Shown: in pieces, positions 1,296 through 58,213 of the stretch
Layout: each line of letters begins with the position of its first letter
Position numbering within the stretch: position 1 is the stretch's first letter
NCBI GenBank assembly: GCA_039938515.1
Contig: JBDUUL010000012.1
Location: forward strand, 1-64,000
DNA from: Nitrososphaera sp.
GTDB taxonomy: Archaea; Thermoproteota; Nitrososphaeria; Nitrososphaerales; Nitrososphaeraceae
Length of the DNA: 64,000 nucleotides
Direction of reading: 5' to 3'
Notes under the pieces: generated by a model
The model's database searches: none
What the model was told of the DNA's origin: nothing
Seen by the model: the letters and a program-made list of their open reading frames with translations, nothing else
Program-made: the position numbers and the translations under genes

Positions 1296-1330
1296 GACGA
1301 AAAGGAAGTCCGGCAAGCCCCGCCCTTCTC

Positions 1331-1338
1331 TTTTTTTT
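1331..1338 (+). terminator. Oligo-T terminator after the surface protein
   Basis: A run of eight T follows the stop codon at 1295 by about 36 nt. Archaeal RNA polymerase stops at oligo-T tracts, so this is the likely end of the upstream transcript. Confidence 0.5.
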
Positions 1339-1453
1339 GCCGTTCTTGCTGAGAATCTCAAGCCGGCGAAATCCACACCGGTCCGCCTCCGTAAGTAGTA
1401 GTACTAGCATACACACACAAATTATCTTAAAGCAAACCAGCAACAAAGCGATC

Positions 1454-2113
1454 ATGCTCAGTCCGAAGCGCATTGTCATTTTCGCGCTTCTCGCAGTTGA
1501 CGGTTTGCTCGCGTTCAGCGTCCTGATGAGCGGACCTACGATCCAGTCAGTCGTGGGGCTGATTTTTCTCAATGCAGTAGTCGGCGGGCCTGCGTACGCA
1601 GCAAGCTACTTTTTGTCCAAGCGGTCGCCCAAGATTCCAGACCTCAATCCAAAGCCAAAGACCACGGGTGGTTTGTCACTCAACCTTTCGGGCTTGTTCA
1701 AAGCAAAGCCTTCCAAACCAAAGAGCTCAAAACCTGCGGTTCATGCCCCGGTACTTACAAAGAAAGGCGAATCCGTCAGCAGCATTGCAGAGCAGCGAAT
1801 TGCAGACCACCTATCTGAGAAGGGCGTCTCGTACGACTACCTTGTCCTGTCGCGCCTGGCATCGGGAAGGAGAGTCAAGAGATCAGCATTCTATCTCTCA
1901 GACTACTCGGCTTTTGTCCTCTTCCGCACTCGATTAAGCTCTGCAGACGGAGGCGAAGGACTCGCGTCTGACGAAGAGACGGAATGGCAGAGAATGAGGC
2001 CGGAAGTGCAGGACCTCAAGTTTATTATATTCAGACAGAAGGACTTGAGGAATTTGGAAAGCTCCCTAAACTCAGTTTTGGCTCAGCTTGACAGCCTGCG
2101 GATGCCAAGCTGA
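1454..2113 (+). CDS. Two-helix membrane protein with cytoplasmic domain, unknown function
   Basis: The ATG at 1454 is preferred over an in-frame start at 1337 because a TTATCTTAAA box lies ~25 nt upstream, giving a leaderless start, and because the extra N-terminus is basic and non-conserved in look. The ~219-residue product has two membrane segments (about residues 5-24 and 31-55), a Lys/Pro/Ser-rich linker (60-105) and a soluble C-terminal domain starting AEQRIADHLSEKGVSYDY. That opening (Glu, then a helix, then Y-D-Y) resembles the start of some PD-(D/E)XK nuclease-like folds, but no complete metal site can be seen, so this is only a hint. The gene converges with the glycosyltransferase at 2141. 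Confidence 0.65.
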   Translation: MLSPKRIVIFALLAVDGLLAFSVLMSGPTIQSVVGLIFLNAVVGGPAYAASYFLSKRSPKIPDLNPKPKTTGGLSLNLSGLFKAKPSKPKSSKPAVHAPVLTKKGESVSSIAEQRIADHLSEKGVSYDYLVLSRLASGRRVKRSAFYLSDYSAFVLFRTRLSSADGGEGLASDEETEWQRMRPEVQDLKFIIFRQKDLRNLESSLNSVLAQLDSLRMPS

Positions 2114-2140
2114 GAACTACCTTCTGCCACGCGAAGAACA

Positions 2141-3493: not shown

Positions 3494-3511
3494 GCCAGAT
3501 ATGTGGTCAGA

Positions 3512-3524
3512 ATTTGATATAAGC
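3512..3524 (-). promoter_or_regulatory. TATA box of the GT2 gene
   Basis: On the minus strand a GCTTATATCAAA box lies ~23 nt before the ATG at 3493, the spacing expected for a leaderless archaeal transcript. Confidence 0.5.
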
Positions 3525-3578
3525 AAAGGCACGAAAAGTACAGTTCAAATCTGACACCTAGTCCGAGACATTCTTGTG

Positions 3579-4175
3579 CTAAGTCGACTGAGCGGCACCT
3601 GACGAGGGTGATTTCTTCATACAGTTGTCCTGGTAGGAAAAGCCCAGCTTCTCATAAAACCGCATTGTCGAGTCGGAGCAGTCCAGGACTATCTTGATAC
3701 AGCCAGCCTTTTCAGCTTGGAGTACTGCATGTGATACGAGTTTTGCCCCGATGCCTAGCTTTTCAAAGCCCGTTCGAACACTGACATCTTCGATGTGTCC
3801 CACCCTGCTTCCTCCAAGAATGAACTTGGGTTCGATAAGGAGGGTTGTCGTGCCAACGACCTGCCTCGATGCAAAGGGTGGCCTCTCCTCTTGAGTCGGA
3901 GCACTTGTCGTCGCGACAAAGATTTTGTGTAATGGATTTGATTTGATTTCTTTGAGGATTTCCCTGGCATGTCCGGGCTGAAGCCGCGAAGTGCCAGGAA
4001 TGAGATTGTCTAGAGAGTCGAGAAAACCCAAAGTAATGTCCTCCTCTTCAAGTTCAGATATCGCGATTTTCGGGATAGCGGTTGCATCAAGAATTCCTCT
4101 GGTGGTGCCCGAGGGAGCGGTTGTACTTTGTTCAGAACCAGAGCTTGAACCAGTGACTGGAAGGTCATTCGGCAT
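3579..4175 (-). CDS. GNAT acetyltransferase, glucosamine-6-phosphate N-acetyltransferase (GNA1)-like
   Basis: The 198-residue product has a ~95-residue N-terminal region and a C-terminal GNAT domain. The stretch GHIEDVSVRTGFEKLGIGAK matches the GNA1 pattern G-H-I-E-D-V-V-V..R-G-x-x-L-G, and the following IVLDCSDSTMRFYEKLGF matches the GNA1 LDC-D...FYEK-G motif. GNA1 makes N-acetylglucosamine-6-phosphate for UDP-GlcNAc. A Shine-Dalgarno-like GGAGG lies ~12 nt before the ATG at 4175, 47 nt after the upstream deacetylase, which suggests one transcript. A GlcNAc pathway role fits the deacetylase and glycosyltransferase neighbours but is inferred. The N-terminal third has no recognised motif. Confidence 0.75.
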   Translation of the reverse strand: MPNDLPVTGSSSGSEQSTTAPSGTTRGILDATAIPKIAISELEEEDITLGFLDSLDNLIPGTSRLQPGHAREILKEIKSNPLHKIFVATTSAPTQEERPPFASRQVVGTTTLLIEPKFILGGSRVGHIEDVSVRTGFEKLGIGAKLVSHAVLQAEKAGCIKIVLDCSDSTMRFYEKLGFSYQDNCMKKSPSSGAAQST

Positions 4176-4222
4176 TATGGCTAGATCCTCCGCCGCAATT
4201 CTTATTTGGATTTCAGGCCGCC

Positions 4223-4999
4223 TCAGCCAAAGAAACGCGTCAGGTTAGTATAATCAAGGAAATTGTAGTTCATTTCTTTGAGGCTCGTTATCATTTCCGA
4301 CTGGTCTGCCAGCGCGCGGTCGTCATCCTTGGGATGAATAGCCAGTCTGACCATCTGGCTGTTATTCAGAATCTTGTCCCTGAACTTCCGCCTGTTAAGG
4401 CCCAAACTCAATGCGTTGAAGTAGGGGGATCCCCTGTCCCAGTTAAGAATGGAGCAGTGAAGCCGGGTATTTTTTCTGAGCAGGAGGATCTCCTGATCAG
4501 TTTCAACCAGCGAAAAGCCCGTTTGTTGCAGGGCATCGATGGTGTACTTGTTTACCGCCCATGTTGGCGGAACAAAAACACCCGGGGTGATTCCGGACTT
4601 TGAAAGGATTGCTTGGCCTTTTCTCAAGTGGTCAACTGCAGCGACGTAAGAGAAATTGTGGAAATCCTCGATATTGCCCTGGACATCCTCGTGGTAGAGG
4701 CCGTGCAGAACTACGGGTTGGTTGTATGACAAAATACTTCCTAGCCATCTCTGATTGTTGCTGATGTCAAACTTTTCATTTGACCTGAAGAGGGGTATCA
4801 TGGCAAAGCCGAAAGGAACTTCAAGCTTGCTCAGGAGCTCTGCAGCACGAACTATCCTGCTCTCGTACGCGGGAGTCACGTCATGGATTGTAACTGTGGC
4901 AAACTTGCTCTTGAGCGCATGTTCGGCGACCCCGAGCTCGTCCATTTCAATCGTCGCCATCTTGTAGTTGACCCAGTAATCCGTGACTACGTCCTTCAT
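4223..4999 (-). CDS. NodB/DUF2334-type polysaccharide deacetylase-like protein
   Basis: The sequence starts with VTIHDVTPAY, where the conserved HD of DUF2334/NodB folds lies, continues with VVLHGLYHED (H-G-x-x-H metal site) and with VFVPPTWAVN, the usual F-x-P-P-W substrate-loop motif, and ends with RLAIHPKD, a typical C-terminal active-site His. These are the landmarks of metal-dependent carbohydrate esterase family 4-like deacetylases, which remove acetyl groups from GlcNAc-type sugars. There is no signal peptide, so it probably acts in the cytoplasm. The ATG at 4999 sits ~21 nt after a TAAATAAAATT box. The acetyltransferase at 3579 is directly downstream. Confidence 0.75.
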   Translation of the reverse strand: MKDVVTDYWVNYKMATIEMDELGVAEHALKSKFATVTIHDVTPAYESRIVRAAELLSKLEVPFGFAMIPLFRSNEKFDISNNQRWLGSILSYNQPVVLHGLYHEDVQGNIEDFHNFSYVAAVDHLRKGQAILSKSGITPGVFVPPTWAVNKYTIDALQQTGFSLVETDQEILLLRKNTRLHCSILNWDRGSPYFNALSLGLNRRKFRDKILNNSQMVRLAIHPKDDDRALADQSEMITSLKEMNYNFLDYTNLTRFFG

Positions 5000-5104
5000 G
5001 CCGAGCTAGCTTGGAGCTTGAATTTTATTTAACAATGATAAAAGAAATTCATTAGCTAATTTTTCAGCTGTATCAAATGGCAGAGACTGCAGCTCGACTA
5101 AAAA

Positions 5105-5111
5105 TTTTATA
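5105..5111 (+). promoter_or_regulatory. TATA box for the small ORF at 5127
   Basis: TTTTATA ends 16 nt before the ATG at 5127, close to the leaderless spacing seen for other genes in this window. Confidence 0.4.
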
Positions 5112-5126
5112 GCATGGCTCTGCTCT

Positions 5127-5360
5127 ATGGCTACCTGCATGAGTTCCAGTGGGAGTGATGCTAACAGCGGCAAGACAAAGCAAAAATTTGCGTACGCGAC
5201 AATAAGAATGCCCGACGGATCTGAGCACGAGATACCGCTTGCGCCAAAGCAGTTCAAGACCGGCCGCGAGGGTTACTATTCGCAGGTGCCGTCATTTGTA
5301 TATGATGGTGAAATCTATGGCGGCCAGATCCAGCTGTGGAAAAAGACAAAGACCGAGTGA
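5127..5360 (+). CDS. Small soluble protein, unknown function
   Basis: A 77-residue protein with a Ser/Gly-rich start and a compact beta-like core (KFAYATIRMPDGSEHEIPL, then YYSQVPSFVYDGEIYGG). Amino-acid use (charged, aromatic, Gly turns) is that of a folded protein, and a TATA-like box lies just upstream. I do not recognise a family. It is divergent from the deacetylase gene and convergent with the GT2 gene at 5394. The opposite-strand frame at 5006-5257 is Leu/Ser-rich and less convincing. Confidence 0.6.
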   Translation: MATCMSSSGSDANSGKTKQKFAYATIRMPDGSEHEIPLAPKQFKTGREGYYSQVPSFVYDGEIYGGQIQLWKKTKTE

Positions 5361-5393
5361 GTATTTACGGGCTGCCATAGACTAAACGCGGGC

Positions 5394-6185
5394 TCATATC
5401 AGCCCAAGGTACGCGAGTACGAACCATATCTTTGTCCGAAATGCGATGTACGCCTCTCGCGCAGTGCTCCGGATTAGCATTTGCCAGATAACTTCCTTGG
5501 TCGTGACCATCTTGTACTTTTTGTAAACATGGCCCTCCTCGATCTGCTGCTTCTTTGGTACATACCTGGGAACCGTTGCTATCACGGTGCCGGTGCGGCG
5601 ATACACGTTTGTCTCGAATTTGGGATAATGCTCTGCAAGGTAGTTCTCGACCTTGAGCCACTTCAGGCCTTTGGAGTCAAAATAGTGTTTGGTTGCTGCA
5701 TCCTCGCCATGCGGGAGGTCGAGGTTGATGTCTTGAAGGTAACTGCGTTTTAGCAACGTCTGTCCGAAAACACCATAGCGCACCTTGGTCAAGTTCTGCA
5801 CTCGCCTCAGCCTGTAGTACTCTATCCTGCAACCCTCTATGGCGTCGGCCTGGTCCATGTACTTGGACATCTCGTCAAACCATCCCTTTTGAAGCACCAT
5901 ATCCGAGTCAATCACGGCGACCCAGTCCGCCTTTGCGACGCTAAAGCCGAACTGTGTTGCTTGGCCCAGGTTGAGTTCCGGCTTTACGTATATCTCCACG
6001 CCGGGATAGCTGGAGGCTATTTTCAGCGTATCGTCAGTCGACCCGCCGTCAACTATGATCACCTTGCGGACGGGGATCTCTGCAAATATCGAGTCAAGAC
6101 ATTGACTCAAGAGTTCTGACGAGTTGCGAGTTCTAATTACAACATCGACAGCGGCATTCTTGTTCTCCTGAGACGATAACAACAC
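5394..6185 (-). CDS. Family 2 glycosyltransferase
   Basis: A soluble GT-A domain is clear: VDVVIRTRNSSELLSQCLDS, VIIVDGGSTDDTL, and AVIDSDMVL carrying the D-x-D metal site. The C-terminal part is basic with a last hydrophobic segment, suggesting membrane association. The frame stays open back to 6407, but that would overlap the upstream gene by over 100 nt, and the extra residues look non-coding. A GTTAAATTTG box ~20 nt upstream of the GTG at 6185 points to a leaderless GTG start. An ATG at 6329 is the main alternative. The acceptor and donor are unknown. Confidence 0.8.
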   Translation of the reverse strand: MLLSSQENKNAAVDVVIRTRNSSELLSQCLDSIFAEIPVRKVIIVDGGSTDDTLKIASSYPGVEIYVKPELNLGQATQFGFSVAKADWVAVIDSDMVLQKGWFDEMSKYMDQADAIEGCRIEYYRLRRVQNLTKVRYGVFGQTLLKRSYLQDINLDLPHGEDAATKHYFDSKGLKWLKVENYLAEHYPKFETNVYRRTGTVIATVPRYVPKKQQIEEGHVYKKYKMVTTKEVIWQMLIRSTAREAYIAFRTKIWFVLAYLGLI

Positions 6186-6300
6186 TCTGATTCTTGCTTC
6201 CTGCAAATTTAACGGTTGAGTGCATTCGTACAAGTGCAAGTAGCATAGTCGGATTAGTGATGATTCAATTCTAAAACTCTTCGCAGAAGCTTTTTGAAGT

Positions 6301-7521
6301 TCAAGTTGCCTCTGAACCGGAAATTCCATTTGCGCTGCTGTCGCTGCCTGATGAAACGGCTTGAACAGGCCTGTCTGTAGCAGGCAAAACACCTGAATCG
6401 GGGGCAACTGCGTTCAGGGTTGCTCTAACCTCTGCAAATTGCTGCAGCCACTCCTGCTGCTTGACAAGTCTAAGCTCATCAATTTCCTCAGTCAGCCTGG
6501 GAAGGTTGCTCATTGCTCTCCTGACCGCGGCAGCTATCTGGCCCGGGCTATTGTCAACATAAAGTGTGCCCCTGTCAAAGTATTCCTTCAGTGCAGGCCA
6601 TGAGGAAGTTATGAGTGGCCTTGCAAGCCCCAGCGCCTCGGCTGCTCCGGAAAGCATCGTGTCGTCGCGGTTTGTAAGTGCCATTACAGCATCGGCGTCT
6701 GAGAGCAGCGAAAGGTAGTCGGACTTGGGCAGGTATCCTGTGAAAACCACGTTGCCGTCATTATTTTTGCCGCGAGGAGCCACCCCGAATTTTTCCGCAT
6801 GCCTGGAGTCGCCTGTGATGTAAAACGTTGCCTCCGGCACTAGGCAGGCAGCCGCGATTACCTCTCTTATTGGCTCGTCGGGCGCAAAGGAACAGACCAC
6901 TGCCACCTTGAAGGATGATCTTGATGGTTTGCTGAGGTCATTGTCGGTTCGAATCCTTTCAGCAGTGGCAGGCACTCTGTCTGCAAGCACTTGACATCTC
7001 TTCACAGAGTACCTCGACATTACCCTTTGCTTCAGCCCGTTATTTGTAACTATGACCAGGCTCGCTCTTCCCAGGATTTTCCTGTGAATGGCCATTAGCC
7101 TCGACCAAGGAGGTTCAAAGTCGGCGGTATGGGCGTCCACAATTATTCTTGCATTTCTCTCAAACAGTGAGCGATACAGCAGGGCAGAAATTGTGCAGAA
7201 AGGAGACGGCTCCTGGCATATTATTAGGCGAGGTCTTCTCGCTTTCAAGGCTGAAATGCTTTTCATAAGCAGTAGCGGATATTTTACCGGCGTATACCAC
7301 TTTCTCTTGAACCTGTAGCTAAGGAGGATTAGCTCGGCGCCGAGAGCACTAGAGAGACCTTCTGCTCTTGGGCTTGACGGTGCCCAAACAAGAAACACTG
7401 GTCTGACGCGAACGCTGCTTTTCTGAATTGCCGCCTTCGCGGCAACGCTGCCGCCGTCAGATTTTTGTTCATGGTCCCTGCTAGGCTGTTGCATCCGCAC
7501 ATCGCGACGGACGCCGGGCAT
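6301..7521 (-). CDS. GT4-like glycosyltransferase
   Basis: The protein has a GT-B architecture. The N-terminal half carries VFLVWAPSSPRAEGLSSALG, LIICQEPSPF and a VDAHTADF segment. The C-terminal half carries KVAVVCSFAPDEP, VVFTGYLPKSDYLSLLSDAD and an ...AEALGLARPLITSS helix matching the nucleotide-sugar site of GT4 enzymes; the usual E-x7-E motif is only partly kept (MLSGAAEALGLARP). No membrane segment is seen. The first ~38 residues are polar and may be disordered, and an internal Met at 7494 is an alternative start. It lies upstream of the GT2 gene on the same strand, so the two may act in one glycan pathway. Confidence 0.78.
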   Translation of the reverse strand: MPGVRRDVRMQQPSRDHEQKSDGGSVAAKAAIQKSSVRVRPVFLVWAPSSPRAEGLSSALGAELILLSYRFKRKWYTPVKYPLLLMKSISALKARRPRLIICQEPSPFCTISALLYRSLFERNARIIVDAHTADFEPPWSRLMAIHRKILGRASLVIVTNNGLKQRVMSRYSVKRCQVLADRVPATAERIRTDNDLSKPSRSSFKVAVVCSFAPDEPIREVIAAACLVPEATFYITGDSRHAEKFGVAPRGKNNDGNVVFTGYLPKSDYLSLLSDADAVMALTNRDDTMLSGAAEALGLARPLITSSWPALKEYFDRGTLYVDNSPGQIAAAVRRAMSNLPRLTEEIDELRLVKQQEWLQQFAEVRATLNAVAPDSGVLPATDRPVQAVSSGSDSSANGISGSEAT

Positions 7522-7636
7522 TTACCAATTAGACAAGAATTCATACACTGATTTAGCCGGAACACATAACCGGAGCGGGATTTCTAGGTTTAACACCCCG
7601 GTTGACCAGCCTATCAATTGAAAGTCTGTCACGGCC

Positions 7637-8065
7637 TCAATTTGCTGAATCTACGTGGCGTTTTCGAGGCTTGTGAAAGTCCGAACTGTCTTCGGTCTGG
7701 TTCTTGTCAGCTTCTGCTTCAGACTCGACTATGCTTCCAAACGCGTCAAGGTCTATGGGTTTCTGGAGGCAAACAACCGGGTGCTCGAGTGACCTTACCG
7801 ACTCGTGCACCACGTCATCCACAAAAGCGCTGATCAAAAGTATCTTTTGCCGCGGCCAGCGGGACTGGATCTCGGCTGCCACAGCAACACCGTCTCTTCT
7901 CGGCATCCGATAGTCCAGAATCACTATATCATATGGTTTTTTTGCATTTTCAATCATCTGGAGGCATTCGATGCCATCCTTTGCAATCTCAACCTCGTGG
8001 CCTATGGACTCAAGCAGGCTCTTGTAGACAAGAGCTATTGGCTCCTCATCCTCGGCTACCAGCAT
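7637..8065 (-). CDS. Single-domain response regulator (CheY-like)
   Basis: A receiver domain covers most of the protein. The acidic pocket is in MLVAEDEEP, the phospho-acceptor Asp is in DIVILDYRMPRRDG (about residue 51), the switch Ser is in ILLISAF, and the Lys is in VCLQKPIDLDAF. No output domain follows; the ~25-residue tail is polar and acidic then basic. The ATG at 8065 is used because an in-frame codon at 8071 is TTG. No histidine kinase is adjacent, so the partner is unknown. In archaea such stand-alone receivers often relay between kinases or act by protein contact. Confidence 0.85.
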   Translation of the reverse strand: MLVAEDEEPIALVYKSLLESIGHEVEIAKDGIECLQMIENAKKPYDIVILDYRMPRRDGVAVAAEIQSRWPRQKILLISAFVDDVVHESVRSLEHPVVCLQKPIDLDAFGSIVESEAEADKNQTEDSSDFHKPRKRHVDSAN

Positions 8066-8219
8066 TCGCAATTTGGGACTAGTTGCGATCCTTGCCCTAT
8101 AGGCTCATGTCTGTTTAGAGCACTACACTAAACCACAATTTCCCTTTTTGAGGGCTATTGCTTTCAGATATTGTGCAAGAGGCAGAGAATCCTGCTCTTT
8201 CTAAGGATATGTATGGATA

Positions 8220-8257
8220 ACATAGTTAATTCACATAGTTAATCTACTCTTAATAGC
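8220..8257 (+). promoter_or_regulatory. Tandem operator-like repeat plus TATA box of the Cdc48-N gene
   Basis: ACATAGTTAAT occurs twice (8220-8230 and 8233-8243, period 13 nt) immediately before the ACTCTTAATAG box (8247-8257), which lies ~23-30 nt upstream of the ATG at 8280. The position fits a binding site for an activator or repressor. Confidence 0.5.
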
Positions 8258-8279
8258 CCGGGCAGGTGCGGGTATAACC

Positions 8280-8993
8280 ATGGAACCTTCCGCAGGAATG
8301 GTGCCCGAGAGGAAACGGCCGGTTATCAACAGCGACAATACCTCAAAACATAACGAGGCCTGGGATAAATTCATGAGAAGGCCCATCTCGCAAGACGTTG
8401 TGCCTCCTGCGCGGCCGGATGACGAGGTCTACGTGCACAAGCTGCGCGTGGGCGAGGCAAAATCCACCGATGCAGGTCGCAACATAATCAGGATTGACGC
8501 CTCGTCATTAATCCTGCTTGGAATCAAGGTAGGCGATATTGTGGTTATTGCGGGCGCCAACGGTTTCAGGGCCGCAGCCCTCTGCCTCGACTCCGAGATA
8601 ATGGAGGTAGAGCCTGTAATCAGGATGGATAGGGTGATGCGCACCAACCTTGGCTTGGCACTGGGCGACCTCATGCCCTGCTCATCTATTAAAGTCGTCC
8701 AAGCTGTACCCGACTCAACTGAGCGCGAAATAATCCTAGACCCGTTGGTCCCCAAAGTGCCAGCGGCGATTGACGAAGCTTATCTCGCCCGGGCTTTGAG
8801 GGGGATGCCGCTTGTGGCAGGCCAGGCTATTGTCGTTCCGTACTTTGGCGGCGTCTGGTATCCGTTTATAGTGCTCCGCATACTTTCCCCCACCTCGACA
8901 GACGTGCTGCGACGCAGCAACCAGCCAGAGTTTGTGGCAATAGTCGGCCCAAGCACGCGGCTTGTATTTGGCGCATCAGGCCTTTCGACCTGA
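8280..8993 (+). CDS. Free-standing Cdc48/VAT N-domain protein
   Basis: Residues ~48-230 follow the N-terminal domain of Cdc48/p97/VAT: L-R-V-G-E-A with D-A-G-R-N-I-I-R-I-D, then LGIKVGDIVVI (double-psi barrel), the I-R-M-D-R-x-x-R-T-N-L segment and a C-terminal subdomain starting at YLARALRGMPLVAGQ. The protein stops where the first AAA+ module should begin; no Walker motif is present. In Cdc48 this domain binds adaptors and substrates, so this protein may be an adaptor or competitor of the cell's Cdc48, or may act alone. The first ~45 residues are polar and probably disordered. The start is leaderless with a TATA box and a tandem repeat upstream. Confidence 0.82.
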   Translation: MEPSAGMVPERKRPVINSDNTSKHNEAWDKFMRRPISQDVVPPARPDDEVYVHKLRVGEAKSTDAGRNIIRIDASSLILLGIKVGDIVVIAGANGFRAAALCLDSEIMEVEPVIRMDRVMRTNLGLALGDLMPCSSIKVVQAVPDSTEREIILDPLVPKVPAAIDEAYLARALRGMPLVAGQAIVVPYFGGVWYPFIVLRILSPTSTDVLRRSNQPEFVAIVGPSTRLVFGASGLST

Positions 8994-9068
8994 ACGGAAC
9001 CCGAAGGCCGACTCCGCGGCGATCATTCTTAATAGCAGGAGGAACGGCTCTAGCAAGGTATTTCAGGA

Positions 9069-10343
9069 ATGAAAGAAGCTATCACTGAGCGCGTCGAGCA
9101 AATTTCCAAGCGCCACGACACAACCGATACCCAGCCCGGCTCAATGAAGCCGCTTTTCCCGAAAGCAGAGTTTGAATCGCGGCTTGAAAGACTCCGCCTG
9201 GCGATGAAAGACTCAGGGCTCGACGTGGCCATTGCGACGGCGCCTGTCAACATTTTTTGGACGTCAGGTTACCTGGGTTCGCCCTCCCATCGAAAGACTC
9301 CTGAATTTATTCATGCCGCAAGCTATCCTTGGGTCCTAGTGCCTCAATCCGGCGAACCCGTGATAGTGGGAAACGCTGGTGCCCTGGTCTCCTATGAAAA
9401 GGAGACCACTATCTCCCGGATCTACACCCATCATCCAACGAAGGACAGGGTTCCCTCACTTGTTGACGCTCTGAGAAGCGAGCATCTTATCTCGGACAGC
9501 TCGGATGGAAAGAGAATCGGCCTAGATTTCGGAGACTATGAGTCCATGTTGGTGCCTCAATATCAGAACCTAGCCAAGCTGCTTGCTGGATCCGCACGTG
9601 TAACTGATGCCACTGATCTTTTTCAGCGCACTCGAATTTTGCGGTCAAACCGGGAGATAGAATCATTGAGGATCGCTTCAGACATCCAGAACAGGGCCTT
9701 TGCCATGTTCTTTAGGAATGTGCAGAAAGGCATGAACGAGCTGGAACTCACCGCACTTATGGAAAGATGCCAGTATGATTGTGGTTCCACCGAGTCGGGA
9801 AACGCACTCGTATGGACTCACCCCTCATACGCCCTTTTCAAAAGGCAGTACCCCGACAGGCTGATGAAAGATGGCGATGTGCAGTGGGTAGACGGCGGGG
9901 CTGTTTACAACGGCTACCATGCGGACTATGACCAGCTTCTTGTCTACGGAAGCGCCAACTCGAAGCAGCTGCACACATTTGGCGCAATGAAAAAAACTTA
10001 CGATCAGGCAATACCGGATTTCTTCAGGCAGAACAAGCCTTTTTCGGAGATTGCCCGGCAGGTGATGGCTCTCATGAAGAAAAACGGTCTTCAGAATCCG
10101 CTAGAGCCAGAAATCTTTCTCGGTCACAACTTGGGTTATCTTATGGTCGAGCCGCCATACTTTGGCACTTTCACTGACCCGAGTCTGGTACTGAAGCCGG
10201 GCATGGTGATTGCGCCGGAATGGTTTACCATGACAGAATACGGGCCAATACTCTATGAACGAAATTATGTCGTGCGCCAGGACGGAAGCCTCGAAGAGAT
10301 CTCTCGATTTGAAAAGGAGCTTGTAGAAGTAGGAAACCGGTAG
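9069..10343 (+). CDS. M24 family metallopeptidase (Xaa-Pro peptidase/creatinase fold)
   Basis: An N-terminal creatinase-like domain (about 30-175) is followed by a pita-bread domain. All five metal ligands of M24 enzymes can be placed: Asp in VDGGAVYNGYHAD (two Asp, eleven residues apart), His in FLGHNLGY, Glu in IAPEWF and Glu in YERNYVV. This supports a two-metal aminopeptidase such as an Xaa-Pro dipeptidase; the creatinase/ectoine-hydrolase branch is also possible. It has no signal peptide, so it is cytoplasmic. Length (424 residues) is usual for the family. It follows the Cdc48-N gene on the same strand but has its own TATA-like box (TCTTAATAG near 9028). Confidence 0.85.
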   Translation: MKEAITERVEQISKRHDTTDTQPGSMKPLFPKAEFESRLERLRLAMKDSGLDVAIATAPVNIFWTSGYLGSPSHRKTPEFIHAASYPWVLVPQSGEPVIVGNAGALVSYEKETTISRIYTHHPTKDRVPSLVDALRSEHLISDSSDGKRIGLDFGDYESMLVPQYQNLAKLLAGSARVTDATDLFQRTRILRSNREIESLRIASDIQNRAFAMFFRNVQKGMNELELTALMERCQYDCGSTESGNALVWTHPSYALFKRQYPDRLMKDGDVQWVDGGAVYNGYHADYDQLLVYGSANSKQLHTFGAMKKTYDQAIPDFFRQNKPFSEIARQVMALMKKNGLQNPLEPEIFLGHNLGYLMVEPPYFGTFTDPSLVLKPGMVIAPEWFTMTEYGPILYERNYVVRQDGSLEEISRFEKELVEVGNR

Positions 10344-10358
10344 CGGCGCACCTGTAAC

Positions 10359-11582
10359 CTACACAGATGCGCTGATTTTATTTGAGGCGAAATTATGGTT
10401 CAGGTAACGCAGTAGCCGCTGGGCGTCACGCTGCGCAATCCGAATATTATCGGCAAGTACTGCCTTTTTCCCTTTCACAATGCTGACCTTGACAATCGAT
10501 TCTTCGCCTTGCATCGAAATTGACATATCGAGTTCAGGGCCTTTCATCATGAAACCTTTTATGGGCTCCGCAATCAGGCGGCGGCCCTCATCCGCTAATC
10601 GTGGGGAAGAGAACTCCATCTCATGCCGGTTGATGCTGTCCTCGACAGTAAATACGAGTCCACCGTTTTCCTTCTTTAAGAGTCTGAGGACGTATTTCTC
10701 TATCGCCTCAACCTCGATAGAGTCGGATACTGGTTCATCGTGAACTTGTGCTACTGCCTTGGGTCGCCAGACCATGCCCTGCCGGGCAACAGTGATGGAG
10801 TACTTGCCCTCGCCCCCGCTGACGCGCAAATGCTCGTCAACTGTCTTTTGCAAATCGTCAAGAGGCATAGGGCGGGTCGGGCCCCGGAACCACTGGTTGC
10901 GAGCGTCCTCCGTATCCTTTTCGCCGGTGTATCCTAGGATGTAGGTGTCCTTTGCATTCCACCGGCGAACAAGGTTGTACGCCTCGGAAACCGATATAGT
11001 TCCAGTCGACGGGTGCTCGTTATAACTCTCCGTTCCGACAATGAGCAGGTCGGGATTCCACATCAGGTTTGCATCGACGTTTGGCAGCGTGAGAAAATCC
11101 CAACCACAGATTATCTTACTACCGGCGTACCTGACTACGTAAATAACCGCACCCGGCGAGCTTCCAAAATCGCCCGAGTGCTCTGCCTGAACCGGTACGA
11201 TCGAAAAGGGGCCGAGATCAAATGACTGAGAAGGAACTACGTGCGAAATCCGTCCGGACAAAGCCGGCGAGTCTTTCAAAATCTGGTCGGCACACTCTTT
11301 GGTGCAGTATACCTTCAATTCCCTGCCTTGCGCAGCCGCAAGGATGGACTCGATCCCGGCGTACTGATCCTTGTGCCCATGAGTGATAAGTATCGCATCC
11401 GGAGAAGATCCGATGTCATCTGAAGCTTGCTTCAAGCTAGATTCAACCCCCGGACCCGCCCCGACGAGTACGTGAAATCTTCTTCCGTCCGAATTTCCAA
11501 CTATGGAACAAGAAGAGCATGCGCCTTCTTGTGACTGCTTCGTGAGCACCCCGTTTACACGAATAAGCAAGGCACCTTCCAT
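10359..11582 (-). CDS. Metallo-beta-lactamase-fold hydrolase with an altered zinc motif
   Basis: Residues ~60-260 form a metallo-beta-lactamase fold: ILITHGHKDQYAGI, then VQAEHSGDF for the next His and CGWDFL for the bridging Asp. The usual H-x-H-x-D-H is changed to H-G-H-K-D-Q, so one second-metal ligand is missing. A ~150-residue C-terminal region follows that looks like a separate alpha/beta domain of unknown function. The ATG at 11582 is preferred to an in-frame TTG at 11603. The gene converges with the M24 gene (15 nt apart). Substrate unknown; RNase-, Lactamase-B- and phosphodiesterase-like roles are all possible. Confidence 0.75.
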   Translation of the reverse strand: MEGALLIRVNGVLTKQSQEGACSSCSIVGNSDGRRFHVLVGAGPGVESSLKQASDDIGSSPDAILITHGHKDQYAGIESILAAAQGRELKVYCTKECADQILKDSPALSGRISHVVPSQSFDLGPFSIVPVQAEHSGDFGSSPGAVIYVVRYAGSKIICGWDFLTLPNVDANLMWNPDLLIVGTESYNEHPSTGTISVSEAYNLVRRWNAKDTYILGYTGEKDTEDARNQWFRGPTRPMPLDDLQKTVDEHLRVSGGEGKYSITVARQGMVWRPKAVAQVHDEPVSDSIEVEAIEKYVLRLLKKENGGLVFTVEDSINRHEMEFSSPRLADEGRRLIAEPIKGFMMKGPELDMSISMQGEESIVKVSIVKGKKAVLADNIRIAQRDAQRLLRYLNHNFASNKISASV

Positions 11583-11647
11583 GTCTAATCCAGTACTAGA
11601 CAAGGAGCATCCTACTTAAACCTAAAGGCTGGTTCTTCGCTGATTTT

Positions 11648-11815
11648 CTAGGCCGCCGCTGCCTGACCTGCGATCACCGGCTTTTCCACTTTAGCCTTTA
11701 CGAAGTGAATCCTCTTGTAGTGGTTCCTGAGTTCGCCCAGGCTGCCGCCAACAACCCTCTTGCATCTGGGACAAACCCACTTCTCGGCGCAAATACCCAT
11801 GAGACGGTTTATCAT
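11648..11815 (-). CDS. Small C2H2 zinc-finger protein
   Basis: Read from the minus strand, an ATG at 11815 opens a 55-codon frame. Its core WVCPRCKRVVGGSLGELRNH continues to YKRIH, giving C-x2-C-x13-H-x4-H, a classical C2H2-type finger. The tail is Lys- then Ala-rich. A CTATAAC box lies 21 nt before the ATG, and a second in-frame ATG at 11800 follows. The box itself lies in one arm of a hairpin at 11828-11865. Such minimal fingers in Nitrososphaera are usually thought to bind nucleic acid or protein; the target here is unknown. Confidence 0.72.
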   Translation of the reverse strand: MINRLMGICAEKWVCPRCKRVVGGSLGELRNHYKRIHFVKAKVEKPVIAGQAAAA

Positions 11816-11827
11816 GTATGGCTTATA

Positions 11828-11865
11828 GGAGTTATAGCAGCTGGACTGAGGAGCTGCTATACTCC
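11828..11865. repeat. Hairpin at gene end / promoter of the zinc-finger gene
   Basis: GGAGTTATAGCAGCT (11828-11842) and AGCTGCTATACTCC (11852-11865) are inverted copies with one unpaired base and a 9-nt loop. The element overlaps the stop codon of the minus-strand gene ending at 11857 and contains the TATA box of the zinc-finger gene. It may end one transcript and mark the start of the next. Confidence 0.6.
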
Positions 11866-12186
11866 TGCGAGCTTCACGTGCCCGTATAGCCGGGCATTGT
11901 TCAATTCTCCAATCTCGCTTCTCTTGTGCTTTCTACGCTCAAGGACGTATCCGCTGGTGGAATGATAGATTATGACCATGTCTTTTGGATAAAACGAAAG
12001 CATTTCGTGGTTCTCAAAATCCGTAGCCATGTGTCTCAAGTGAATCCGCTCCCAGGAAAATAGGTCGTCCATCTTGCCTGCAAAATGAAAAGTGCTCCCG
12101 CAAGGGCAGTCTACATCACGCCAGCTGCCTTTGAGGTTGCGCAGCCATACGGAATCATTAGCCCGTTTTGCGTTGTTTTCCATCAT
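11857..12186 (-). CDS. Small Cys/His protein, unknown function
   Basis: A 109-residue product with a charged start, a DVDCPCGSTFHFAG motif (C-x-C only, so not a full zinc finger), a Met/His/Phe-rich middle and a basic C-terminus (LERRKHKRSEIGEL). The ATG at 12186 lies ~37 nt after a CTATAATAATC box, implying a short leader. I do not recognise the family. It precedes the C2H2 finger gene on the same strand, and its last codons form half of the hairpin described above. Confidence 0.55.
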   Translation of the reverse strand: MMENNAKRANDSVWLRNLKGSWRDVDCPCGSTFHFAGKMDDLFSWERIHLRHMATDFENHEMLSFYPKDMVIIYHSTSGYVLERRKHKRSEIGELNNARLYGHVKLAGV

Positions 12187-51686: not shown

Positions 51687-52535
51687 GTGGTCATAGCTAT
51701 TCATTTGAGTGTTCTTCTTGAGGTCAACAATCTCTCCAAGCACTATCCCAAGAAGGCAGGCTTGCTAAGCGCGCTTGGAAGGTCAAGGCCGGAGTGGCAC
51801 AAGGCAGTCGACAATGTTTCCTTTAGCGTTGACAGAGGAAAGGTGCTCGTCATAGCGGGCGAGTCAGGCTCTGGCAAGACTACTATTGCAAAAATGGTGA
51901 CCGGCGCGACCGCGCCGACTTCCGGCACCGTCACTTTTGACGGCGTTGATGTGTGGAAGCTCAGGGGCCACGAGCTGAAACAATTCCGTTCCAAGGTTCA
52001 CATGGTCTATCAGGACCCATACTCCTCGCTTGATCCTAGGATGAAAGTGATGGACATCGTGATGGAGCCTCTGAACATCCATGAGGGAAGGAAGTCGACA
52101 AGGGGCCAGAAAGAAGAGAAGGTTCTGAACTCGCTGGTCGAAGTCCGCCTTGCGCCCGAGATAGCCCAGCTCCTTCCGCAAGACCTTTCGGGTGGCCAGA
52201 GGCAGCGCGTGGCAATTGCAAGAGCCATAGTGCTGCGCCCGCAACTGATAGTTGCCGACGAGCCCGTGTCGATGCTCGATGTGTCTGTGAGGGCGGAAAT
52301 CCTAAACCTGATGATGAATCTGAAGGACCAGCTCCAGTCCGCATTTATCTACATCACCCACGACCTGTCGACAGCCAGGTACGTGGGCGACAGCATAATC
52401 GTCATGAAGAATGGGACGGTGCGGGAGAAGGGCAGCATCGATCAGGTTCTACTGCAGCCTTCAGATTCGTACACAAAAGCGCTTATCAGTGCTATCCCTG
52501 ACATAAGCTCGGCGTATCAGGACGTCGGAAACTAG
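51687..52535 (+). CDS. Oligopeptide-type ABC transporter ATPase (DppF/OppF-like)
   Basis: Walker A is IAGESGSGKTTIAKMV, the Q-loop YQDPYSSLDPRM, the signature LSGGQRQRVAIARA and Walker B LIVADEPVSMLD, then the switch His in YITHDLS. The S-S-L-D-P motif and C-terminal PDSY-T-K-A-L-like end fit the OppF/DppF branch. The start codon is GTG at 51687 or TTG at 51705. Its neighbours are the binding protein and two permeases. A second ATPase, usual for this family, is not found in the cluster. Confidence 0.92.
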   Translation: MVIAIHLSVLLEVNNLSKHYPKKAGLLSALGRSRPEWHKAVDNVSFSVDRGKVLVIAGESGSGKTTIAKMVTGATAPTSGTVTFDGVDVWKLRGHELKQFRSKVHMVYQDPYSSLDPRMKVMDIVMEPLNIHEGRKSTRGQKEEKVLNSLVEVRLAPEIAQLLPQDLSGGQRQRVAIARAIVLRPQLIVADEPVSMLDVSVRAEILNLMMNLKDQLQSAFIYITHDLSTARYVGDSIIVMKNGTVREKGSIDQVLLQPSDSYTKALISAIPDISSAYQDVGN

Positions 52536-52599: not shown

Positions 52600-55500
52600 A
52601 TGCAGAAAGCAATTCTGCTCGGTTCGCTGGCGACACTTTCTCTGCTCGTTTGCGCTTTTGTCTCGTCAGTTGCGTCAAGCAATTCCGCCTTCGGCCAGGC
52701 CGCCAAGGGTCCCGTTTCAGACTCGGTAAAGTTTACACAGTATTCTGACGAGAATATCGCGCTCAAGGCAGTAAAGTCCGGCGACATTGATGCTTACCTT
52801 TACAGGATTCCAATCGAGCTGGTATCGGACGCGCAGAAAGATCGCGGCCTCGCAGTCTATGACCGAGACGCGGGCTCTTTCGGCCTTCTAATGAACCCTG
52901 CCCCGTCGAACGATTCCAGCGTGCTTAATCCCTTTCAGTTCAGGCAGGTGAGGTTTGCCATGAATTACGTGGTAGACAGGCAGTTTACCGTAAGCGACAT
53001 TCTGAAGGGCTCCGGAACGCCAATGTCTGATCCCTTCGGCATATCGTCACCAGAGTACACCACCATAGCTGACATTGTCGAATCCTTTGCATTCCGCCAC
53101 GACCTTTCGTTTGCAAACCAGACCATAAGTGCAACCCTGAAGAGCGCCGGTGCCACTATGCAGTCAGGCAAATGGCAATTCAAGGACAAGCCGATTACGA
53201 TCAACTTCTTCATCAGAAGCGACGACCCAAAGAGGAATGCAATCGGCGAAGCTATTGCGTCCGACCTTGAAAAACTGGGCTTTACGCTAGACAGGATATA
53301 CGGCGACCTTGCCCGCGCACAGCTTGACGTCTACGGTTCCGATCCGCAGGAACTCAAATGGCAGCTCTATACTGAAGGCTATGCGGGAACCGCCACGTTC
53401 GTAGCATACAACCCGACCGTTACTGCTCAGATGTACGCTCCCTGGTACGGAAACATGCCCGGCCGTGGATCGTCGGCGACATGGCAGTACGCAAACAAAA
53501 CACTAGACGCCATAACGCAAAAGATCCTGAACCTGAACTTTACCTCAAAGGAGGAGAGAACCCAGCTTGTAAGAAGCGCGGTGCAGCAGGGGATGCAAGA
53601 GTCTGTCAGGATTTTTATCGCGCAGACAAAGGAGCCTTATGTGGCATCATCCTCGGTCAAGGGGCTTGTTAACGACTTTGGCGCGGGCATTTCAAGCAGG
53701 TTTTCCATAATTGACGCCAAGGCAGACGGCAAGTCCGACCTCAATATTGGAGTAAGAAACCTTGCACAGGGTGCATGGAATAACATCGGAGGGCTAAAAG
53801 ACACCTTTACAATAACACTGTCCTCGCCCGTTGAAGACCCGGCGGTCATGTACCATCCTTATCTCGGCACTGCAATTCCAGTCAGAACCAACTGGACGGA
53901 CATTACAACACATGGGCCGACCGGCTCGCTCAACGTTTCAGCGGACGCCATCAAGTGGGATCCTTTTGCCGGGAAATGGCAGCAGGTGGGAAGCGGCACA
54001 ACCGCAGAGAGCAGCGTCACCTACAAGATTCTCTATGGAAACTGGCATAACGGCATAGCGATGGACAAGAACGACCTGCTGTATTCCTATTATTTTGGCT
54101 TCCAGTGGGGGACGAATACAACCTCGAACGGCAAGCCATACCTGACGTATGACCCCGAGTACACCCCCTCGGCTGCGCCCAGCCTTCCCACCCTGAAAGG
54201 GATAAAATTCACCTCCGACGATACGGTCGTCTCTTATGTAGACGCATGGCATTTCGACAGCAGGGAAATAGCCAGCCTTGCATCCATATGGGCGGTTGAG
54301 CCATGGGAAATTACCGCCGCGGAGGAGAGGCTCGTCACTGCATCCAAGCTGTCGTTCTCAAGCAGTGGCGCCGTACAAAAAGGCGTCGACTGGCTGTCGC
54401 TTGTCAACCCTGTCCATGCACAAATGATAAGCGACGAGCTGCAAAAGATGAAGGACGAACGCTATATCCCGACCGCGCTGCAGGGGCTCGTGACAAGCGA
54501 TGAGGCAAACAAGAGGTATGACGCAAGCATCAAATGGATATCCGAACACCACCACGCTGTAATTAGCAACGGTCCATTCTATCTCGATACGTTCAACGCA
54601 GCGGGCCAGACGGCGACCTTGAAGGCATTCCGGGACGACTCGTACCCGTTCCCGCCGGATTACTGGTCAGCAAAGTTCGGCGTTCCGCAGGTAGCTTCTG
54701 TTAAGAGTATCGATACAACAGGCCCTGCGACAATCGGCAAGCCCAAGGCAGTGAAGATCGTGGTGAACGTCGCAGATCAGCCAAGCAGCGACGCACAGGT
54801 CCTCTACTTTTTGTCCGGCGACAAAGGGGTTTCGGCATCCGGCAACGCAACTGCGTCGGCGAATAATCCAGGCGTTTTCGTGGCGACCATGAATTCGAGC
54901 GTCACCGGGCAACTTGCGCCGGGCGCATACCAGTTCAAGGTATTTGCGATTGGCAACCAGGCATACAAGCCAGCATTCGCGTCCGTCCCGCTGCTGCTCA
55001 TGACAGCTACCGCGAGCGGTTCTGGCCCAGGCGGCCAAGGCAACGGCACTGGCTCCGGAACGACAGCGGGCAGCAATACCAAATCTGGCTGCCTTATCGC
55101 AACCGCAGCGTTTGGCTCAGAGCTAACACCACAGGTCCAGTACCTGCGTAATTTCAGGCAGAACTATATCCTGCAGACGGTCTCCGGATCCGCCTTTATG
55201 GACACCTTTAACAACATCTACTATTCATTCAGCCCACAGGTTGCCGATTATGAAAGGGGCCAGCCCTGGCTTCAGGAAACGGTCAAGGCGTCAATATACC
55301 CGCTTTTTGGGATTCTCATGGCCTCGGAAAGAGCACATAACTCAGTCAGTGGTGGAGAAGCCGGCGCCGTACTTGCCGGGGTCACTGCAAGCTCCCTCAT
55401 CGGAGCAGTCTACCTTGCTCCGCCGATAGCTGCATACTCGATTTTCAGGCGGAAATCCGTCCGGACTCGCTGGCTAAAGTTACTGGCCGGGCTTGCTGCG

Positions 55501-55695
55501 TCTGCACTTGTGGCAACTGTAGCTGGAATCATGGCGCACAACTCAGAATGGCTGTCGATTAGCACGGCAGCTTTTGTGGCTCTTACTGCCGCAACAAGCG
55601 CCATGGCTTTTGGTGTGTTTGCAATACCGAAAGTCGCCTCGGCAATAAGACTGCGGGTGCACGCGAGCAGACAAAAGCGAGCGCAAGAATTTTAA
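52600..55695 (+). CDS. Oligopeptide-binding protein (SBP family 5), permuted order, with CFI-box C-terminus and membrane anchor
   Basis: A signal peptide (1-~32) precedes blocks of SBP family 5 in swapped order. Near residue 60, SGDIDAYLYRIP and, at 110-128, FRQVRFAMNYVVDR correspond to the family's later half. Only near 490 comes KILYGNWHNGIAMDKNDLLY, the normal early block, then SNGPFYLDTF (about 655) and SYPFPPDYW (about 685). At ~829 a GCLIATAAFGSELTPQVQYL motif (CFI-box) is followed by ~3 membrane helices (915-1015). So it is likely tethered to the membrane beside the permeases. A GGTTTTATG box precedes the ATG. Confidence 0.85.
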   Translation: MQKAILLGSLATLSLLVCAFVSSVASSNSAFGQAAKGPVSDSVKFTQYSDENIALKAVKSGDIDAYLYRIPIELVSDAQKDRGLAVYDRDAGSFGLLMNPAPSNDSSVLNPFQFRQVRFAMNYVVDRQFTVSDILKGSGTPMSDPFGISSPEYTTIADIVESFAFRHDLSFANQTISATLKSAGATMQSGKWQFKDKPITINFFIRSDDPKRNAIGEAIASDLEKLGFTLDRIYGDLARAQLDVYGSDPQELKWQLYTEGYAGTATFVAYNPTVTAQMYAPWYGNMPGRGSSATWQYANKTLDAITQKILNLNFTSKEERTQLVRSAVQQGMQESVRIFIAQTKEPYVASSSVKGLVNDFGAGISSRFSIIDAKADGKSDLNIGVRNLAQGAWNNIGGLKDTFTITLSSPVEDPAVMYHPYLGTAIPVRTNWTDITTHGPTGSLNVSADAIKWDPFAGKWQQVGSGTTAESSVTYKILYGNWHNGIAMDKNDLLYSYYFGFQWGTNTTSNGKPYLTYDPEYTPSAAPSLPTLKGIKFTSDDTVVSYVDAWHFDSREIASLASIWAVEPWEITAAEERLVTASKLSFSSSGAVQKGVDWLSLVNPVHAQMISDELQKMKDERYIPTALQGLVTSDEANKRYDASIKWISEHHHAVISNGPFYLDTFNAAGQTATLKAFRDDSYPFPPDYWSAKFGVPQVASVKSIDTTGPATIGKPKAVKIVVNVADQPSSDAQVLYFLSGDKGVSASGNATASANNPGVFVATMNSSVTGQLAPGAYQFKVFAIGNQAYKPAFASVPLLLMTATASGSGPGGQGNGTGSGTTAGSNTKSGCLIATAAFGSELTPQVQYLRNFRQNYILQTVSGSAFMDTFNNIYYSFSPQVADYERGQPWLQETVKASIYPLFGILMASERAHNSVSGGEAGAVLAGVTASSLIGAVYLAPPIAAYSIFRRKSVRTRWLKLLAGLAASALVATVAGIMAHNSEWLSISTAAFVALTAATSAMAFGVFAIPKVASAIRLRVHASRQKRAQEF

Positions 55696-55730: not shown

Positions 55731-56798
55731 TTGAAGGGTCTTCAGGCCTTTATCCTCAAGCGGGCGGTATACCTTGTATTCGTGCTTTTCGCTACCGTGG
55801 TCGTCACGGTGGGCCTCTTGGGGCCTACATTCGACAAGGTGCTGGCCGGCGTTATCCGAGACCACTGCACAGAAGACGTCAACATGAATCCAAAACTATC
55901 AAAGCTGCCTCCAATTGAACGCAATAAACTAATCGCAGACTGTGATCGTACTCAGACTGTTTCACAGGGAATCGACCAGCCATGGTACTCGCCAAACCGG
56001 CTCTACAACACGGTCGAGAAAGTCATGTTTTTGGACCTGGGAAGGACGGCAAACACCTACCAGGGGGGCGCTGGAACGCATGACATCCATGACCTCATAA
56101 TGGAACGTCTGCCAAGAACAGTACTTCTCTTTGGCAGCGCCACGGTAATCGTATCTGTCATTGGAATCTATCTTGGCACGCACGTGGCTGGCAGGGAAGG
56201 CTCGATAAGCGACAAGGCAGTCTCCGCGGTGACAGTCGCGAGCAGCAGCTTCCCGACCTGGTGGGTAGGGATGCTCATGATCCTGGCTTTTGCCTTTGCG
56301 CTCAGGGTATTCCCGGCGCAGTCGCTGATACAGACGTCTCCCACTGATCCGATGTACGTGCCCGACCTGCTTTACCACATGGCCCTGCCGCTCATTACGC
56401 TTGTGATAATCGGGTTTGGTGCCTGGGCGTATTCAGTGCGCTATTTTGTCCTCCTTGTGCTTGGCGAAGACTTTATCCGAGCCAAGCGGACCGCAGGCGT
56501 GCCGGAGCGCAGAGTGCTCTATTCCCATGCACTGAGAAATGCGGCGCCTCCAATTCTCACTTCCGTGGCACTGAGTCTTGCCGCATCGTTTGGAGGAGCA
56601 ATCCTGGTCGAGACCGTGTTTAACTGGCCCGGCATGGGGATGCTCTACTACGAGGCAATCGGATACTTTGACATTCCGGTAATAGTCGGGCTGACATACG
56701 TGTCTACGGTCATTTTTGTGATAACCGTATTTGCAATAGACCTAGCATACGGCATCTTTGACCCCCGGCTCCGGCTCGCACAGGAGGGGCAGGCATAG
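55731..56798 (+). CDS. Oligopeptide ABC transporter permease, OppB/DppB type
   Basis: Six membrane helices, with a large extracytoplasmic loop (about 30-120) after the first. The permease EAA region is RTAGVPERRVLYSHALRNAA. It forms half of the membrane channel. The start is a leaderless TTG after a TTAATATAAA box. Its stop overlaps the GTG of the next permease by one base, so both are made together. Confidence 0.9.
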   Translation: MKGLQAFILKRAVYLVFVLFATVVVTVGLLGPTFDKVLAGVIRDHCTEDVNMNPKLSKLPPIERNKLIADCDRTQTVSQGIDQPWYSPNRLYNTVEKVMFLDLGRTANTYQGGAGTHDIHDLIMERLPRTVLLFGSATVIVSVIGIYLGTHVAGREGSISDKAVSAVTVASSSFPTWWVGMLMILAFAFALRVFPAQSLIQTSPTDPMYVPDLLYHMALPLITLVIIGFGAWAYSVRYFVLLVLGEDFIRAKRTAGVPERRVLYSHALRNAAPPILTSVALSLAASFGGAILVETVFNWPGMGMLYYEAIGYFDIPVIVGLTYVSTVIFVITVFAIDLAYGIFDPRLRLAQEGQA

Positions 56799-58213
56799 TG
56801 TCGGAAAAACCGTCAGACAGGATACTTTCAAAAAGCGAGATTGTGTCTCGGCTCCTTCGTTCGAGGGCCGGCTTGGCGGGCGTCATCCTACTGCTGCTCC
56901 TTACTTTGATTTCTGTATATGCCGCAATCGCCGTGCCCCGCGAATCGTACGACCAGTGGAACAATCCAACCTTCTGGCAGGATTATCCCAAGACCGTGCC
57001 GCCTGCATGGACGGACCTGCCATTCCTTGGTAGTAGCGCCGCCAAGACTATAGTGCTCACGCGGTCCGACGCAACCGTAACCGAATCCCAAATGCAGGGT
57101 GGCAGGGCAGTCAGTTATTCTTGGAATGCGGGCTACTCATATGACTCATTTCCAAGCCGCTTCAGCCTTACCGCCAAGGCGGAATACTCAAAGCTCCCGC
57201 TAATCCAGCTGGACGTCACGAGACCCGACGGGCAGACATTTACACTTTACTATTCCGCGCTGCCATCAGTGCAGGGGACAGGCATGACCGTAACGGACGT
57301 GCGAATAGTCTCAACCGACAGCTCGATTTCGTCAAATCTGCAAAACTACGTTGGACAGTTTAGCTGCGACATAGACGTTGCCAAACCGCAGGTGATGATC
57401 TTTTCAGACGCCCACGACTGCAAAGTTCTCAAGGGCAATTATGTCTTCAAAGTCACAGCTTACTTTTTCTCGCCTTCCGACTCTATACGGGAAGTCGCGT
57501 TAATTTTTCCCGGCCAGGTCTTTGGCCTTATGGGTACCGATGACACAGGCAGAGACCTCTCTATCGGCATACTCTGGGGTGCGCCAGTGGCTCTGTTTAT
57601 CGGGCTCTCGGTTGCGTTTGCCTCAACCTTCATTGGACTGTACTATGGCGTAATTTCCGGCTTTAAGGGTAGGTATGCGGACGAGGGCATGATGCGTATG
57701 AACGATATCTTTTACTCCCTTCCAGCGCTTCCGCTCCTGATTATCCTTTCAGTCACAGTCGGAAGAAGCATCTTTCTATTTGTCGGGTTTTTCATACTGT
57801 TTGGCTGGGTTCCAATTGCGAAAATAGCCCGCAGCCTGGCACTTCAGATAACCAAGCTCCAGTACGTCGAGGCAGCAAAACTGATGGGTGAAACTGACCT
57901 GAGAATAATTAGAAGGCATGTAATACCGCAATTGATTCCGATTGCTTTTGCGACCATCGCTGTCGCCGTTCCAAGCGCGATACTCGCAGAGGCTGCCCTC
58001 AGCTTTTTGGGCCTTGGCGATCCGTCAATCCCCACTTGGGGCCGCATACTGCACGATGCAAACTCTGCGGCGGCAGTCCAGCGCGGGATCTGGTGGTGGG
58101 CCCTCATCCCAGGCTTTATGATTGCGCTAACAGGTACTGCCTTTGTGCTAATTGGAAATACTCTGAACTCGATCGTGAACCCGCGCTCGAGGCGGCAGAC
58201 AAAGGTCGTATGA
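56798..58213 (+). CDS. Oligopeptide ABC transporter permease, OppC/DppC type
   Basis: The N-terminal helix (AGLAGVILLLLLTLISVYAA) is followed by a ~170-residue extracytoplasmic insert, longer than usual for OppC, then LMGTDDTGRDLSIGILWGAP, the mark of the family, and the EAA loop EAAKLMGETDLRIIRRHVIP. The GTG start overlaps the previous stop, with AGGAGG ~11 nt upstream. It completes the transporter with OppB-like and the tethered binding protein. Confidence 0.92.
   Translation: MSEKPSDRILSKSEIVSRLLRSRAGLAGVILLLLLTLISVYAAIAVPRESYDQWNNPTFWQDYPKTVPPAWTDLPFLGSSAAKTIVLTRSDATVTESQMQGGRAVSYSWNAGYSYDSFPSRFSLTAKAEYSKLPLIQLDVTRPDGQTFTLYYSALPSVQGTGMTVTDVRIVSTDSSISSNLQNYVGQFSCDIDVAKPQVMIFSDAHDCKVLKGNYVFKVTAYFFSPSDSIREVALIFPGQVFGLMGTDDTGRDLSIGILWGAPVALFIGLSVAFASTFIGLYYGVISGFKGRYADEGMMRMNDIFYSLPALPLLIILSVTVGRSIFLFVGFFILFGWVPIAKIARSLALQITKLQYVEAAKLMGETDLRIIRRHVIPQLIPIAFATIAVAVPSAILAEAALSFLGLGDPSIPTWGRILHDANSAAAVQRGIWWWALIPGFMIALTGTAFVLIGNTLNSIVNPRSRRQTKVV

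Follow-up and report, generated by a model that had tools for sequence, protein, structure and literature searches.

A circularly permuted OppA-like binding protein in Nitrososphaera, with canonical and third block orders in its family

Operon and binding protein of the Nitrososphaera locus

We analyzed a 64,000-nt stretch of a Nitrososphaera sp. genome (contig JBDUUL010000012.1, positions 1–64,000), here termed the window, in which a plus-strand operon encodes an OppF-like ATPase, a binding protein, OppB and OppC, in this order. The first gene (51687–52535, +) specifies an OppF/DppF-type ABC ATPase (ABC_tran, 4.4e-33; the best NCBIfam match is a dipeptide ATP-binding subfamily model). It is followed by an open reading frame for a 1,031-aa substrate-binding protein (52600–55695, +), an OppB-type permease (55731–56798, +; BPD_transp_1, 2.5e-35) and an OppC-type permease (56798–58213, +; BPD_transp_1 at residues 281–465) with an extra extracytoplasmic domain. 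An OppD-like ATPase, ~40% identical to the window OppF, stands alone on another contig (G000 C1:386787–387521; loci L208 and L302). The genome thus combines OppB/OppC with OppD/OppF, OppF, OppB and OppC being adjacent and the OppD-like protein encoded elsewhere.

The binding protein is of the oligopeptide/dipeptide type (SBP_bac_5, cluster C), with its blocks circularly permuted. Behind a signal peptide region (residues 1–33; 52600–52698, +), recognized by a hydrophobic segment at residues 4–22 in hydropathy analysis and by low model confidence over residues 1–30, lies a C-block (residues 38–375; 52711–53724, +) that corresponds to what is normally the later half of an SBP_bac_5 domain. A short linker in the gap between the HMM boundaries of the two blocks (residues 376–378; 53725–53733, +) bridges the ancestral C and N termini, and the N-block (residues 379–691; 53734–54672, +), the first half of the normal domain, comes second. 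The Pfam SBP_bac_5 model (PF00496) aligned residues 38–263 with profile positions 146–348 only, so that the late part of the domain leads; this C-block match scored 71.8 bits against a curated cut-off of 32.4, and the N-block was undetected by the model. Standard profiles annotate half of the protein because of its permuted order.

In a phmmer search of the PDB, the protein matched the 732-aa archaeal OppA 7fi3_A (E = 1e-39), with residues 388–683 aligned to 7fi3_A 18–309 and residues 104–297 to 397–597. A profile built from 66 homologues matched the same chain at E = 6e-117, positions 4–342 corresponding to 7fi3 residues 317–594 and 663–723, and positions 354–642 to residues 17–306. Each block is thereby placed on the opposite half of 7fi3, which confirms the swapped block order described in the earlier note. 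Residues 17–306 and 317–723 of 7fi3 are each used once, so the whole domain is covered with its halves exchanged, and the new chain ends fall within the short loop 306–317. Both halves of the bilobed domain are present once, in an order other than the canonical N-to-C order of SBP_bac_5 and cluster C proteins; neither a single normal-order domain nor two full domain copies was found. When the canonical Thermococcal core was doubled, the permuted-order profile ran unbroken over the joint (276–636), and on the doubled Baldrarchaeota protein L235, which has a third block order termed type 2, the profile covered 70–645. The C-block follows immediately upon the end of the N-block in the ordinary SBP_bac_5 protein that was tested. 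Permuted members rearranged to canonical order aligned end to end with OppA at 26–30% identity.

An AlphaFold model of the window protein, built from sequences fetched in this analysis, forms one compact fold (mean pLDDT 85.7, pTM 0.76), with residues ~33–800 mostly at pLDDT >90. A Foldseek search with this model ranked 7fi3 first yet aligned no more than about half of it (TMt 0.40), the behavior expected when a sequential aligner meets a permutant; many cluster C proteins followed. Sequence and fold matches of the binding domain are to cluster C proteins of the OppA/NikA/DppA type, not to the MglB-related fold of cluster B (type I). Together with conservation across hundreds of genomes (below), the profile alignment, the doubling test, the reordered alignment and the compact model support the circular permutation that the earlier note had proposed. 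No second SBP_bac_5 protein was found in the window genome and, for this reason, the protein probably belongs to the principal peptide importer of this class that the genome encodes.

Past the end of the new fold, a beta-sandwich (Ig-like) domain (residues ~699–802; 54694–55005, +), modeled as consecutive strands at pLDDT >90, weakly matched a cell-surface glycoprotein (7ptp) in the profile search. A low-confidence linker separates it from a CFI-box-CTERM domain (residues 831–902; 55090–55305, +; NF041770, 71.1 bits, cut-off 40), behind which hydropathy predicts three membrane helices (residues 921–939, 961–979 and 991–1009; 55360–55626, +) that are also helical in the model; the CFI-box and the approximately three C-terminal helices had both been noticed earlier and were recovered here. 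This CFI-box tail is largely limited to the window's genus and occurs on other secreted proteins as well. In the same genome, the CFI-box and three-helix tail also ends two secreted proteins of 643 and 447 aa (L300, 529–2460, +; L301, 778–2121, −), which suggests that a C-terminal anchoring module is common to them.

Block orders, tails and partner permeases across genomes

The earlier note had proposed searching related genomes for the same order, and it was found, colinear, in 66 of 70 genomes from the GTDB family to which the window belongs. It was also colinear in 243/300 class genomes and 187/300 phylum genomes; all three tallies count a few fragments, and the latter two include some weaker or partial matches. 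The half-annotated protein occurs in most ammonia-oxidizing archaea sampled here, and ordinary canonical-order SBP_bac_5 proteins coexist within the same phylum. Phyla beyond Thermoproteota are covered by one named scan, in which the best 80 of 355 loci, scored for block order with separate C-block and N-block profiles, comprised 73 permuted, four canonical, one third-order and two incomplete cases. Permuted loci include Geoglobus, Baldrarchaeum (an Asgard archaeon among the taxa with C–N order) and Thermoplasmata, and among bacteria Thermotogota, Spirochaetota, Atribacterota, Bipolaricaulota and Bacillota. A novelty specific to Nitrososphaera was rejected, as the order spans Thermoproteota and further phyla. 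A tblastn search of 72,556 plasmids with a permuted member gave no full-length match; those listed were partial and fell on ordinary binding proteins, on their C-block side.

The four canonical loci of the named scan all belong to Thermococci. The third order is that of L235, known from a single MAG contig, where the cut lies within the N-block (profile 237/238) and the cut blocks are preceded by a signal peptide and followed by a C-terminal membrane helix. Canonical members also exist in two Thermoproteota lineages, f44 and f43. Those of f44 (L333 and L334; 897–898 aa) carry a Thr-rich linker and a C-terminal helix. Of the two f43 genes, L335 (genome G544) encodes an N-terminal membrane helix and a Thr/Pro linker, replacing signal peptide and C-terminal anchor, and L336 (G548) begins at a contig end; G556, from the same genus, has a permuted member. 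Searched against 398 genomes, a canonical-order profile showed permuted members as two halves, and the f43 gene was the only colinear canonical match among the matches listed.

A hydrophobic tail segment was present in all four canonical Thermococci, in type 2 and in most archaeal permuted (type 1) members, and the bacterial permuted members listed lack it, L273 being the sole exception. Anchoring and permutation are thus separable, because bacterial permuted members are mostly unanchored and canonical Thermococci are anchored. For the window protein, a C-terminal membrane tether is plausible as a prediction from sequence, and to this extent the earlier note's idea of a tethered protein holds; its connection to the permutation does not, as tail and order vary independently.

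The extra domain of OppC (residues ~60–240; 56975–57517, +), a typical trait of this transporter family, was recognized by length comparison and is absent from solved Opp/DppC chains, which start aligning at profile position ~240. As modeled (pLDDT 93), the window OppC has a beta-rich extracytoplasmic domain at about residues 85–237, which resembles jelly-roll carbohydrate-binding modules only weakly. Conserved W..W.DNPK..PP.W, RPDG and PLKG.Y motifs occur in this additional ~170-aa domain, a candidate docking or sensing domain. Upstream of the conserved OppC membrane domain, type 1 operons encode a median of 246 aa, Thermococci 243–256, type 2 250, f44 ~275 and f43 ~199, compared to a median of 71 (40–125) beside ordinary SBP_bac_5 proteins. 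The permease partner is therefore of one kind irrespective of block order. The suggestion that a permuted binding protein would meet its permeases differently found no support, as the genes for permuted, canonical and third-order proteins all neighbor one OppB/OppC subfamily, in which OppC is long. In the deeper relatives L203, L204, L205 and L167, genes for the binding protein, OppB, OppC and two ATPases all lie together. At L167 (G450, 327–12025), an ordinary-type OppB/OppC pair (OppC of 335 aa) adjoins the permuted operon on the same contig, the OppC of the permuted operon having 475 aa. Within 14–15 kb of the permuted genes L198, L199, L201 and L202 (order members, families f2 and f3), no OppB, OppC or ATPase relative was found, and these genes are hence uncoupled from permeases.

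Phylogeny and direction of change

Trees were obtained by quick searches, with eight ordinary SBP_bac_5 proteins as outgroup. The permuted-protein family, including its canonical members, formed one clade (support 100), within which the canonical members and the third cut point are nested among permuted ones. Thermococci are sister to permuted Geoglobus (support 99), canonical f44 lies within permuted Desulfurococcales/Acidilobaceae (support 100) and type 2 is placed beside permuted Baldrarchaeum (support 83–87). Canonical f43, on a long branch beside permuted f43, f4, f33 and f40 members, has the weakest placement (support 82). Analyzed separately, N-block and C-block agreed on their nearest permuted relatives in Thermococci and in f44; in f43, block affinities were mixed and the nearest relatives of the two blocks were not cleanly the same. 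Among the rows compared, an insertion at window residue 298 is confined to Thermococci and permuted Geoglobus. Parsimony on this tree requires a minimum of five block-order changes, with one origin followed by re-permutations. In AU tests, for which groups were picked by block order rather than from the tree and canonical f43 and f44 were included only once the first tree had been made, uniting all permuted members in one clade cost 174 log units (p = 0.00014) and grouping the canonical members cost 156 log units (p = 0.00012); with only Thermococci outside, p was 0.015.

These relationships are most simply explained if the chain was permuted once, long ago, and then re-permuted repeatedly, in most cases to the canonical order again. 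In the detailed form of this reading, which we consider likely, the family was permuted at least four or five times, being swapped once, reverted separately two or three times and cut once at a third position, with permease and fold constant and 7FI3 a revertant. With still greater confidence, we view the window protein as a permuted OppA-like component of an Opp/Dpp-type ABC importer that descends from one old permutation with later re-permutations. Its chain starts in the middle of a canonical domain and runs through the second half, a short linker at the old termini, the first half, the Ig-like domain and the membrane tail. Outside the membrane, the protein most likely catches peptides (or similar solutes) and passes them to OppB–OppC, with transport presumably driven by OppF and the OppD encoded elsewhere. 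The permutation would have arisen once, in the ancestor of a large transporter family of archaea and bacteria. Its probable mechanism is tandem duplication with subsequent trimming, the usual model for circular permutation (PMC3320104), although no family member still carrying an intact tandem duplicate, as an intermediate would, was found. Thermococci and one or two Thermoproteota lineages would then have reverted, and Baldrarchaeota would have moved to a third cut position.

An artefactual origin of the swapped match, through lobe self-similarity, a mis-assembled gene or two unrelated domains, is extremely improbable: binding-protein lobes are broadly alike in fold, but each block matches its own half at the E value given above, the gene is a single continuous ORF across hundreds of independent genomes and the protein is confidently modeled as a single fold. 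Mis-assembly was rejected because the order is common to these hundreds of genomes. More serious, yet still unlikely, is a canonical ancestor in which the C–N order arose repeatedly at the same cut point, leaving Thermococci and the other canonical members as relics. Permutation could recur at one favored loop, and among the other SBP_bac_5 proteins listed from this phylum, canonical order prevails. However, many identical events would be needed because permuted members surround each canonical lineage, whereas one origin with re-permutations needs a minimum of five changes; in addition, AU tests rejected both permuted and canonical monophyly, and the residue-298 insertion is common to Thermococci and permuted Geoglobus only.

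We also weighed whether permutation was an adaptation to C-terminal anchoring, the tether being relocated to free the docking faces. The predicted C-terminal anchors of the window protein and most archaeal members would fit, and the authors of the TpMglB-2 study suggested anchoring as a cause for their protein (PMC4990184). The tail helix is, however, missing in nearly all bacterial permuted members and present in canonical Thermococci and f44, and a canonical f43 member is anchored N-terminally, which makes this explanation very unlikely; coupling of permutation to anchoring was rejected as a rule, since tail presence cuts across block orders. As to the route by which the swapped order arose, fission into half-genes followed by fusion in reverse, instead of duplication and trimming, has a modest chance of being correct. 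It is a recognized route (PMC3320104), and the cut lies in a loop between halves able to fold as units. Against it, stable separate halves were seen in no lineage, genes that do appear split resembling contig ends or frameshifts, and the third cut of L235, inside the N-block, better suits duplication and trimming.

Comparison with known systems

Natural circular permutations are usually presented as single events that separate two protein groups. Here, one transporter family has permuted, canonical and third-order versions and a constant partner. Because three orders share this partner, the role of chain order in folding, secretion, tethering and docking becomes directly addressable in the permuted-OppA family.

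Thermococcus kodakarensis OppA (PDB 7FI3), by its title a complex with an endogenous pentapeptide, belongs to the same family, with both blocks homologous over their full length (E = 6e-117), and in its Thermococcal relatives the protein ends in a Thr-rich linker and an anchor, with a gene for a long OppC adjoining. It differs in its canonical order; besides being permuted, the window protein has the Ig-like domain, the CFI-box and three helices in addition. Cluster C proteins in general (OppA, DppA, NikA and AppA) share the SBP_bac_5 domain, as the C-block score above the Pfam cut-off attests, but in the window the order is permuted, the N-block is missed by Pfam and OppC has an extra domain. 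The open-access literature that was searched gave no description of a permuted binding protein from cluster C, although a prior mention in connection with 7FI3 is possible. A permuted binding protein is known from cluster B. This is TpMglB-2 (Tp0684, 'Cluster Bc'), a natural circularly permuted and membrane-tethered ABC binding protein (PMC4990184). It has the cluster B sugar-binding fold and another cut and is found mainly in treponemes and Gram-positives; reversion to canonical order is not described in the passages considered (PMC4990184). The coexistence of several permuted orders has a parallel in DNA methyltransferase-type families (PMC3320104), which are unrelated enzymes, whereas in the present transporters the partner subunits are constant and the canonical order has apparently been regained.
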